IMG/VR virus record: IMGVR_UViG_3300025645_000221
Span: 1 to 34,494 of that record
Length of the DNA: 34,494 nucleotides
Source of the DNA: a virus
Strand: one strand, 5' to 3'
Numbering within the stretch: the first letter of the stretch is position 1; each line of letters starts with the position of its first letter. The notes beneath the pieces were generated by a model. That model was given only the letters and a program-made list of their open reading frames with translations. It was not told the origin of the DNA and searched no databases. A program made the translations under genes and the position numbers. Positions 1,366-33,520 of the stretch are shown here, piece after piece.

Positions 1366-1564
1366 CACAAAAATATTTGACAGACTATTGACAATTGAAT
1401 TAAGGAATGGCGTAGGGTGTGACCTTGAATTTGTAGACAGCAAAGCTGTATGGGTATACAATCACATCACAGAGGAACACAGCACGATGCCCTTCGAGGG
1501 CGTAGTAATCCTGCTACCGTTCCTATCAATAACCTATGGCAGACCCTATACGGAGGCTGAATAA
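1358..1564 (+). CDS. Small early protein, unknown (68 aa)
   Basis: The predicted fold is mainly beta: LTIELRNGVGCDLEFVDSKA followed by VWVYNHITEEHSTMPFEGVV and a hydrophobic end. The hydrophobic run VVILLPFLSI is short and probably a core strand rather than a membrane segment. The gene starts inside the end of the previous gene (eight-base overlap) and its TAA overlaps the next ATG. No family recognised. Confidence 0.68.
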   Translation: MINTKIFDRLLTIELRNGVGCDLEFVDSKAVWVYNHITEEHSTMPFEGVVILLPFLSITYGRPYTEAE

Positions 1565-1740
1565 TGAGCAGATGCAAAGCGTGTGACGTTATACTGACTG
1601 AAACAGAGCTACGAAGAAAAGACAGGGTGACCGATGAATTTCTTGACCTATGCTCCGAGTGCCATACGGCATCAGAGGAGGCGATAGAAGAGAACTGGTC
1701 AACAGCAGAAGAACGTGATATAATAAGGAGTAACAATTAA
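1564..1740 (+). CDS. Small zinc-ribbon-like protein (58 aa)
   Basis: Two CxxC knuckles, C4-KA-C7 and C30-SE-C33, are spaced as in a treble-clef or zinc-ribbon fold, with the helical acidic C-terminus that follows. Very similar short proteins (MSKCKACD...LC..C) are, as I recall, conserved in marine podoviruses, without known function. It is the last gene of the small-gene cluster; a 147-base regulatory gap follows. Metal binding is likely from the motif; nucleic acid or RNA polymerase binding would be a guess. Confidence 0.75.
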   Translation: MSRCKACDVILTETELRRKDRVTDEFLDLCSECHTASEEAIEENWSTAEERDIIRSNN

Positions 1741-1753
1741 TTTATATAAACAG

Positions 1754-1782
1754 TTGCAACCAACAGTAATACATGATATAAT
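1754..1782 (+). promoter_or_regulatory. Sigma-70-type promoter of the replication operon
   Basis: TTGCAA (1754-1759), a 17-base spacer and a perfect TATAAT (1777-1782) precede the SSB gene. Transcription would start near 1789, leaving a leader of about 100 bases that holds the phased repeats. The -35 matches the E. coli consensus at 4 of 6. This is the only clear promoter between the small-gene cluster and the replication genes. Confidence 0.75.
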
Positions 1783-1793
1783 ATTTATGTAAT

Positions 1794-1864
1794 CTAAAGG
1801 ATACTTAGTTATATATATTAAAATATATCCTAAAGTATCCTTAAGATACTAAAGTAATCTTTAA
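1794..1864 (+). repeat. Phased CTTAAG-like array in the replication leader
   Basis: Related hexamers begin at 1794 (CTAAAG), 1804 (CTTAGT), 1830 (CTAAAG), 1840 (CTTAAG), 1849 (CTAAAG) and 1859 (CTTTAA), mostly 10 bases apart, so they lie on one face of the helix. The array starts about five bases after the predicted transcription start. It also forms inverted repeats: GGATACTTAG (1799-1808) with CTAAAGTATCC (1830-1840) around an AT-rich loop, and AGTATC (1834-1839) with GATACT (1845-1850). The same motif recurs at 32859-32957 and 33108-33163. Operator, origin or RNA element are all possible. Confidence 0.6.
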
Positions 1865-1887
1865 TTAACTATAAAAGGCAAATTACA

Positions 1888-2256
1888 ATGGCAGTATTAG
1901 AAGGTAACGTAGCGTTCGCAAACCTTGACGAACACGAAGAATATCAGGGTCAATCAACAGGTAAGTACTCACTGGTTTTATCATTAGAACCAGAAGATGC
2001 AGATAAACTTGCTGATAAAGGTGTCAAGCTACGAGAGTACGAAGGCACAGCACAGCGTAAGTTTAGCACCAAGTACGAAGTACCGATGTTTGATGCAGAT
2101 GGCAAAGACTTCGTAGGTCGCTTGACCAGAGGCTCTAAGGTGCGGGTTAAGTACGCGGAAGGGAAACCTCACCCAGTACACGGCACGTCAACGTATCTAT
2201 CAGCCATCAAGGTGATTGAACTCGCAGAGGCTACCGAAGGAGGTGGTGACTTCTAA
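1888..2256 (+). CDS. Single-stranded DNA-binding protein, T7 gp2.5-like
   Basis: This 122-residue protein is predicted to coat single-stranded DNA at the replication fork and to recruit the polymerase and primase-helicase. It looks like a compact OB-fold: FANLDEHEEYQGQSTGKYSL, a central beta-rich part and VRVKYAEGKP. It ends in an acidic tail closing with a C-terminal Phe (EATEGGGDF), as in T7 gp2.5 and bacterial SSBs, where that tail contacts partners. It is shorter than T7 gp2.5 (232 aa). It is the first gene after the promoter at 1754 and its stop overlaps the primase-helicase start. The call rests on the tail and gene order more than on a clear motif. Confidence 0.75.
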   Translation: MAVLEGNVAFANLDEHEEYQGQSTGKYSLVLSLEPEDADKLADKGVKLREYEGTAQRKFSTKYEVPMFDADGKDFVGRLTRGSKVRVKYAEGKPHPVHGTSTYLSAIKVIELAEATEGGGDF

Positions 2257-7726: not shown

Positions 7727-7890
7727 TGAAAGGACAGACGCAGTATGGCAAAGGGTCGGCACAACGACCCACTGACCCCAAGAAGTACGCAGATAACTTT
7801 GATGCTATCTTTGGCAAACTTAATGTCAATGACCACTCAGATGAAGATATAGAGAAAGACAAACTAAAAAATAAGGAAGTTAAGAAATGA
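7726..7890 (+). CDS. Small charged protein, unknown (54 aa)
   Basis: The protein begins MKGQTQYGKGSAQRPTDPKK and ends in a highly charged tail (DEDIEKDKLKNKEVKK). The sequence RPTD...YADNFDAIF is, as far as I recall, found in small phage proteins next to ribonucleotide reductase or DUF3310 genes. It starts in a TAATG overlap and its ATGA overlaps the next gene, so it is translated with both. No function can be given. Confidence 0.72.
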   Translation: MKGQTQYGKGSAQRPTDPKKYADNFDAIFGKLNVNDHSDEDIEKDKLKNKEVKK

Positions 7891-32089: not shown

Positions 32090-32452
32090 TTAGTAAGTCC
32101 ACATTACATAAGGGGTTGTATCGTCAGGACTGCGGATATCAACATGGACGAAGCCACGAGCAACTCCCACGCCTGTGAATCCAAGCGCGATAGCCTTCTC
32201 AACGATACGAAACCGTTGGTAGCCGTTAGTGACTTTAATATCCGCGGCAATGCCTTGTGCATGAGTTCCTGTTCCTGCTTTTGCTTTCTTAGCTTCAATT
32301 GGGTGTGTTTTATCTCTATATCCTGACGTAATTACAAAGGGAAAACCACAGGCTTCTCTTAGCTTATCTAGCTTCTCAATGAACTCTTCTTTAATTTCGT
32401 TGTTGCCTGTGTACTGACAAGCAAACTCATCTCTATCAAAGTACTTAGCCAT
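32090..32452 (-). CDS. Peptidase M15-family endolysin
   Basis: This 120-residue zinc peptidase has the M15_3 (D-Ala-D-Ala carboxypeptidase-type) signature: SGYR (43-46), H64-AQGIAA-D71 and H103-V-D105. It should cut the peptide crossbridges of the wall at lysis. It has no signal peptide, so it needs a holin; candidates lie 10 kb away at 20551 and 22785. It is unusual that it sits between the two terminase genes; it overlaps TerS by eight bases. A structural wall-piercing role is an alternative. Confidence 0.92.
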   Translation of the reverse strand: MAKYFDRDEFACQYTGNNEIKEEFIEKLDKLREACGFPFVITSGYRDKTHPIEAKKAKAGTGTHAQGIAADIKVTNGYQRFRIVEKAIALGFTGVGVARGFVHVDIRSPDDTTPYVMWTY

Positions 32453-32849
32453 CTATGATTTCCCCATCGTCTATGACATCCTCTGCATTACCTGACACCA
32501 CTGTAGTCTCTCCTCCAACCCCAGTAATGTTTATCTGTATCGCTGACTTACCCGCGCCCTTGATGACATCATTCTCAAATACAGCTGTGGGTAATATCCT
32601 GTCCATGACTAACTTCCATGCCGCGGCTTGATTCTTATGGTCATCGTTAAGTGCCGCATCGAATATCGAGTCTAGGACTTTACGAGACTTAGGGGATGAC
32701 AACATCCTGCCCTTGTACTCGTTAATGATAGCCGCATCACCCTTCGGGCGACCCCTTGACAAACCAGTAGTGCCTTTTTTTCTTGACACCATGTCTGACT
32801 TCTTAGGTCTGCCCCTTCTCCTTTTCGGAGTAGCTGTATCATTGTCCAT
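32445..32849 (-). CDS. Terminase small subunit-like protein with AT-hook motifs (134 aa)
   Basis: The N-terminus is basic with two RGRP AT-hook cores (RRGRPKKSD at about 11-19, SRGRPKGD at about 31-38), followed by helices (INEYKGRMLSSPKSRKVLDS, NDDHKNQAAAWKLVMDRILP) and a beta-like acidic C-terminus (IQINITGVGGETTVVSG). Gene order before TerL and the DNA-binding N-terminus support a small terminase subunit that recognises the packaging site. The phased repeats at 32859-32957 lie immediately upstream and could be its target. No direct family motif was found. Confidence 0.78.
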   Translation of the reverse strand: MDNDTATPKRRRGRPKKSDMVSRKKGTTGLSRGRPKGDAAIINEYKGRMLSSPKSRKVLDSIFDAALNDDHKNQAAAWKLVMDRILPTAVFENDVIKGAGKSAIQINITGVGGETTVVSGNAEDVIDDGEIIDG

Positions 32850-32858
32850 TGTATTCTC

Positions 32859-32884
32859 CTTAAGTTATCTTAAGTATACTTAGG
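32859..32884 (-). repeat. Phased CTTAAG array overlapping the terS ribosome site
   Basis: CTTAAG at 32859 and 32869 and CTTAGG at 32879 are exactly 10 bases apart. Within it TAAGTATACTTA (32871-32882) is a perfect 12-base palindrome. On the minus strand the final copy reads CTTAAGGAG, so it overlaps the Shine-Dalgarno of terS. Binding here could block translation or transcription of the late operon, or mark a packaging site. Confidence 0.65.
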
Positions 32885-32931: not shown

Positions 32932-32957
32932 TCTAAGACTACTTAAGTACGCTTAAG
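32932..32957 (-). repeat. Second phased CTTAAG array in the late leader
   Basis: TCTAAG at 32932 (4 of 6), CTTAAG at 32942 and CTTAAG at 32952 follow the same 10-base phase. The array lies about 22 to 47 bases after the predicted start of the late transcript (promoter at 32986-33014), and 48 bases before the other leader array. Confidence 0.6.
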
Positions 32958-32985: not shown

Positions 32986-33014
32986 ATTATAGCATATTTA
33001 TAACTAAATGTCAA
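32986..33014 (-). promoter_or_regulatory. Consensus sigma-70 promoter of the late operon
   Basis: On the minus strand TTGACA (33009-33014), a 17-base spacer and TATAAT (32986-32991) match the sigma-70 consensus at every position. It would start a transcript near 32979 reading terS, endolysin, TerL and portal. A perfect consensus is expected to fire at once on infection, so a late operon would need a repressor or other delay; the phased arrays downstream are candidate sites. Confidence 0.93.
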
Positions 33015-33104: not shown

Positions 33105-33163
33105 ATACTTAAGTATACATAAGAATACATAAGGAAAACAAATACTTAGGGGATAAACTTAGG
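33105..33163. repeat. Third phased CTTAAG-like array
   Basis: CTTAAG (33108), CATAAG (33118) and CATAAG (33128) are 10 bases apart; CTTAGG follows at 33145 and 33158 out of phase. ATACTTAAGTAT (33105-33116) is a perfect palindrome. The array lies upstream of both promoters, about 330 bases from the rightward -35. Confidence 0.55.
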
Positions 33164-33491: not shown

Positions 33492-33520
33492 TTGTACAAC
33501 ATAGCAAACTTCTATATAAT
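33492..33520 (+). promoter_or_regulatory. Early rightward promoter
   Basis: TTGTAC (33492-33497), a 17-base spacer and a perfect TATAAT (33515-33520) would start a transcript near 33527, 54 bases before the first early gene. The -35 matches only 3 of 6, so an activator may be used, or the upstream elements at 33320-33408 may contribute. Confidence 0.65.

Follow-up and report, generated by a model that had tools for sequence, protein, structure and literature searches.

Phased CTTAAG-type repeats behind the replication and late promoters of an uncultured marine phage family

Introduction

Two major operons of phage HK022 have related elements, the put sites, in their leaders, where these act as structured RNA. 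In phage 186, the protein Apl has seven sites, spaced 10-11 bp apart, between two promoters, and it binds them cooperatively, bends the DNA, and represses both promoters (PMC7498355). The small terminase protein (TerS) of phages SPP1 and SF6 binds ~100 bp of DNA, made of AT runs with GC spacing, that overlaps its own promoter and the start of its gene, with neighboring helix-turn-helix (HTH) motifs separated by about one turn of the helix, and it lowers transcription of the packaging operon (PMC4737164). SF6 TerS selects this DNA mainly by shape, via its HTH motifs (PMC4737164).

Here, we describe arrays of CTTAAG-type words in the leaders of both the replication operon and the late operon of a phage represented by a 34.5-kb virus record (G000), the full 34,494 nucleotides of which are hereafter referred to as the window. 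A search of the literature did not bring up any description of these arrays. Like the sites of Apl and of Xis/Cox-type factors, these words are direct repeats one helix turn apart. Unlike in those systems, the arrays lie downstream of two promoters that are ~3.2 kb apart, their core is CTTAAG, and no Xis-, Cox-, or Apl-like protein was recognized among the small open reading frames (ORFs) scanned with Pfam and PHROGs, a scan that could miss distant forms. As in SPP1 and SF6, an array is found beside terS and its promoter; here, however, the hexamer is conserved including its outer C and G, the window TerS carries GRP motifs and no recognized HTH, and the replication operon has an array of its own. 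The resemblance to HK022 put is that one phage bears related elements in both major operon leaders, whereas the array described here extends outside the transcript and the late leaders show no RNA-specific folding signal.

Results

Gene content and relatives of the phage

The rightward genes of the window include that of a Gp2.5-like single-stranded DNA-binding protein (SSB; 1888..2256, + strand; phrog_112, E 3.6e-10), with which the operon begins, and those of a primase-helicase (DnaB/Toprim), a family A DNA polymerase, and a ribonucleotide reductase of the B12 type. The leftward late genes start with a small terminase-like protein (TerS) and TerL. Because no RNA polymerase gene was recognized among the window proteins scanned, the host enzyme probably runs the expression program. 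Cultured phages are distant, with a primase identity of at most about 50%, mostly partial TerL matches, and a single SSB match at 35%; uncultured relatives are abundant. The array-bearing phages are a large, uncultured marine family for which we found no close cultured relative.

We also noted several features of the record itself. The contig end (34391-34494) repeats the start (1-104) over ~104 bp, apart from at least one mismatch (aatctggttgg versus aatctagttgg), which suggests that the genome is circularly permuted or redundant and that these are not true linear ends. The ORF at 34098-34397 matches the Pfam family Kyano_Gp96 (Kyanoviridae Gp96 protein; E 2e-17), and the ORF at 7385-7723 matches DUF3310 (E 4.3e-23), with the gene for the B12-type ribonucleotide reductase downstream, at 7887.

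Phased hexamers follow both operon promoters

The first-pass annotation had described six related hexamers at 1794-1864, at spacings of 10, 26, 10, 9, and 10, behind a sigma-70 promoter, and both parts of this description held when we went back to the DNA. The promoter scan returned a sigma-70-like promoter at 1754..1782 on the + strand (TTGCAA-17-TATAAT with an extended -10, TG), which is conserved in relatives, and the hexamers and their spacings agreed base for base. With this promoter on one side and the SSB gene on the other, the array reads, on the + strand, CTAAAG (1794..1799), CTTAGT (1804..1809), CTAAAG (1830..1835), a perfect CTTAAG (1840..1845), CTAAAG (1849..1854), and CTTTAA (1859..1864). 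Four of the six words are within one mismatch of CTTAAG, whereas those at 1804 and 1859 are loose, with two mismatches each. Counting only words with at most one mismatch to CTTAAG and taking dinucleotide shuffles as the chance level, we found two pairs spaced 9-11 bp apart in the replication leader, against 0.025 expected (p 0.0005).

The same type of word was found to be phased in the late leader, on the minus strand, in line with the earlier proposal that the two operons share a promoter-then-array layout. Here, the promoter scan yielded a perfect TTGACA-17-TATAAT promoter with an extended -10 (32986..33014, - strand), and reading along that strand gave CTTAAG (32952..32957), CTTAAG (32942..32947), CCTAAG (32879..32884), CTTAAG (32869..32874), and a last CTTAAG (32859..32864) that adjoins the TerS ribosome site. 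By the same count (at most one mismatch to CTTAAG), this leader contains three pairs at 9-11 bp, compared to 0.07 expected, and none of 2000 shuffles matched it. The shuffles thus rule out a chance array in AT-rich DNA. A third phased patch (CTTAAG, CATAAG, CATAAG, at 10-bp steps; 33108..33133, no strand assigned) lies upstream of the late promoter and outside the late transcript, with a promoter-like site that faces rightward, at 33493, on its other side. Across the whole window, the only 120-bp stretches with at least two phased pairs were the replication leader, the late leader, and this patch at ~33108-33133.

The phasing is conserved and spans several repeat units

In nearly all the SSB and TerS homologue leaders that we collected, a TATAAT-type promoter is followed by CTTAAG words. 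Among 21 genomes of the family, the distances between CTWAAG-type words were sharply distributed, with 46 pairs at 10 bp, 15 at 9 bp, and ~5 at other distances, and the 10-bp and 9-bp pairs fell mostly in the replication and late leaders. Strict CTWAAG pairs were absent in G002, G003, and G010, where looser variants could be seen by eye. In non-redundant leaders, harmonics appeared at 19-20, 28, and 36-37 bp, i.e., the periodicity spans four units, which favors a DNA array because adjacent hairpins would not give such harmonics. Direct repeats about one helix turn apart are what characterizes a tandem operator of the Apl/Xis type; the mean step of ~9.5 bp is slightly below the B-DNA turn, which counts against the DNA-array reading. 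Within the hexamer, the outer C and G were as constrained as the TTAA core, and recognition would accordingly be base-specific.

The element is also a near-diagnostic mark of the phage family. A scan of viral contigs with the 16-mer CTTAAGTATACTTAAG found at least 140 places, and among the 140 matches listed, 108 preceded a TerS homologue by no more than 300 nt, 4 were upstream of SSB, 12 belonged to other places in the family, and 16 were unrelated. In 257 Gb of bacterial genomes, the same 16-mer gave 35 matches, approximately chance level by our own estimate, and we therefore rejected the idea of a host operator word. The longest array that we saw occupies the first ~180 bases upstream of TerS at L627, where about a dozen near-identical repeats of the CTTTAAAG/CTTTAG type follow one another at ~10-bp steps. 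Two further variations in SSB leaders deserve mention. The leaders of L467 and L468 differ by one extra 10-bp CTTAAGTACA unit, which suggests the gain or loss of a repeat, and in L515 and L523 part of the leader has apparently been replaced by a ~95-nt G+C-richer segment (GTGGGCAAGGTGGAGTG...GTCGCTCC) for which Rfam had no match at the gathering threshold.

The two leaders of a genome change together

A shared factor would be hard to reconcile with unlike leaders in relatives, and when we compared the leaders, such dissimilarity did not occur. Across the 19 genomes with both leaders, which represent about nine clades, the replication and late leaders shared on average 13.2 8-mers within the same genome, 11.7 between different members of the same clade, and 7.8 between different clades. 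In a permutation test, 0 of 20,000 permutations reached the same-genome mean (p<5e-5), with an effective sample that is small because the clades number about nine. In the controls, the difference was 0.25 ± 0.5 with dinucleotide-shuffled leaders and 0.47 with coding DNA from the region that precedes the replication promoter. Individual variant words were common to both leaders of a genome as well, namely CTAAGGTATAC in G003, AAGACTCTTAAG in G025, and CTTAAGACACT in G030. Such shared words fit a single protein that reads both leaders, or else copying between the leaders. The CTTTAAAG variant of G001 was dropped as proof of joint switching because its second cluster is largely coding and lies at a contig end, and we drew no joint-switching case from the distant CTTTAAAG pairs in L581, L582, L609, and L643.

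The earlier suggestion that one factor could control both operons thus stands in part, as the array is present in both leaders, is conserved, changes its variant words jointly, and has phased pairs upstream of the late promoter. It does not extend to every lineage: the divergent G028 (SSB 46%) keeps the array at TerS and has none in its SSB leader, which makes joint control less than universal.

Hairpins overlap the replication leader but do not account for the array

The main alternative is a leader RNA element, in which hairpins or single-stranded CUWAAG words would control antitermination, stability, or translation in both operons. The arm-length hairpin that the repeats had been said to form is real as judged by pairing and fold: GGATACTTAG (1799-1808) pairs with CTAAAGTATCC (1830-1840) with one bulged base, forming a hairpin at 1799..1840 (+ strand; z -4.6) with an AU-rich inner stem, and the replication-leader RNA of the window has a folding energy of -20.2 kcal/mol (z -4.1 to -4.6 versus dinucleotide shuffles). 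In relatives, this hairpin displayed one compensatory change (L051/L053) and one G-U (L047). A possible second hairpin, at the SSB ribosome site (1854..1886, + strand), would pair GTAAT (1854-1858) with ATTAC (1882-1886), such that CTTT faces the SD AAGG (1875-1878). Its closing pair, a single pair, changes from G-C to C-G in L024, L035, L490, and L495 of clade A (window-like phages), and the hairpin is absent from the minimum free energy (MFE) fold of the window. In sister clades, a 3' hairpin of the replication leader occurred with 10 distinct arm pairs, among them GAUAC/GUAUC, GAUCC/GGAUC, GCUAC/GUAGC, and GGUAC/GUACC, with G-U intermediates and a loop 4 to about 28 long. Here, 50 of 50 pairs were standard versus 41.6 upon re-pairing (p 1e-4), where the arms were picked by eye (the right arm being unaligned by MAFFT), which favors pairing. 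The polarity of the sites also runs with transcription, as CTAAAG outnumbered CTTTAG along the transcribed direction by 38 to 12 in replication leaders and by 39 to 18 in late leaders. Such a polarity suits head-to-tail binding; as it also suits an RNA word, the RNA explanation stays alive.

The covarying hairpins can, however, be separated from the array: L332 and L414 have the hairpin without CTTAAG, and a CTTAAG-like site stands separately, upstream of it. We dropped folding energy as a test of DNA versus RNA and used only the sense/antisense comparison because self-complementary words fold well on either strand. In this comparison, which for the late leaders tests strand folding symmetry only, sense (z -2.8) and antisense (z -3.0) folded equally. 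The element is, moreover, not confined to the transcribed leader, since in the 21 genomes we counted 20 phased pairs upstream of the late -35, compared to 0.72 expected. The periodicity over four units likewise speaks against an RNA element, and Rfam covariance models gave 0 matches in the window and six loci, so a known RNA family was rejected. The search for covarying stems that had been proposed for telling RNA from DNA yielded one strongly covarying hairpin of sister clades and a single clade A pair, both in replication leaders; for the late leaders, the evidence is the strand symmetry of their folding. Given the pairs upstream of the late -35 and the strand-symmetric late folding, a DNA operator array fits better, and we consider it unlikely that leader RNA is what the array encodes. 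The RNA alternative of the first-pass annotation is borne out insofar as real hairpins overlap the replication leader; these leave the array itself unexplained. We conclude that both layers exist, the array being the DNA layer and the hairpins that overlap the replication leader the RNA layer.

Candidate binding proteins

Two conserved genes could encode the protein that reads the array. The leading candidate for a shared binder is TerS (32445..32849, - strand), found in 21 of 21 genomes, which has two invariant GRP (AT-hook-like) motifs, weak DUF5681 and AT_hook matches below the cut-off, and no recognized HTH. Its low-confidence structure model (pLDDT 58) shows three helices and a disordered N terminus and was too poor for a structure search, which we therefore dropped. 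TerS is favored by its invariant GRP motifs, by the array in its own leader being the most constant, and by the precedent of SF6/SPP1 TerS. Against it, an AT hook could dispense with the outer C and G of the hexamer; as these are also conserved, a reading by AT hooks alone, of any AT run, was rejected. The second candidate is a 58-aa protein with a C-x2-C ... C-x2-C pattern, whose gene (1564..1740, + strand) lies directly upstream of the replication promoter and is present in 20 of 21 genomes; it had no informative family or sequence match, and its model (pLDDT 74) no significant fold match. An HTH-like ORF at 517-690 was set aside as a regulator, being found in few relatives.

The prominence of terS raises the question of whether the late array is simply a packaging site, i.e., a pac site bound by TerS, with the replication-leader copy as a secondary site or relic of little regulatory role. 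Nowhere is the array as constant as beside terS, including at loci with a TerS identity of only 33-35% (L211, L183, L236), the listed CTTAAGTATACTTAAG matches concentrate in front of TerS, the GRP motifs of TerS are invariant, and in SF6/SPP1, TerS occupies nucleosome-like DNA that spans the promoter and beginning of the terS gene (PMC4737164). This explanation leaves the conserved SSB-leader array of most lineages and the joint change of variant words unaccounted for, and contig ends do not appear to fall consistently at the array, which together make it quite improbable. A replication origin with iterons, where transcription from the promoter would prime replication at the AT-rich phased repeats, would suit repeats directly behind a promoter that heads the SSB, primase-helicase, and DNA polymerase genes, yet it is very hard to credit given a full second copy in the late leader that is the more constant of the two, no recognized initiator gene, and a GC skew that changes sign near 10 kb and again close to 33 kb rather than at 1.8 kb.

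Discussion

On balance, we moderately favor a tandem operator array that is bound cooperatively by one protein, most likely a phage-encoded one for which we can name candidates only, and that acts on both operons. Judging from the arrangement of the sites, the protein would recognize CT(T/A)AAG words at 9-10-bp steps and, through cooperative binding, occupy one face of the DNA in the promoter-proximal leader. Because the late (TerS) leader bears the same array, one protein can act on both operons. The sites start shortly past the -10 and reach into the first ~130 bp, and binding there would block initiation or early elongation. Such binding would probably repress both operons; repression appears likelier than activation as the mode of timing because both promoters, with their extended -10, come close to the consensus. 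The leader RNA hairpins that overlap the array may tune SSB expression separately.

Were TerS, our first candidate, the operator-binding protein, the late array would amount to a pac-like site, and TerS binding would couple packaging to the shut-off of its own operon and of the replication operon. That TerS binds the arrays at its own and the replication leader and shuts off both operons while starting packaging is, in our view, a doubtful proposition. If true, a large group of marine phages would switch from replication to packaging by means of TerS alone, and with TerS as the binder, the timing of this switch would become directly testable. More broadly, the array offers a regulatory element that can be tested in an abundant family of phages whose expression is probably run on host RNA polymerase: at the level of cis-sequence, it ties the replication operon to the late operon, and it singles out two conserved proteins as candidates.
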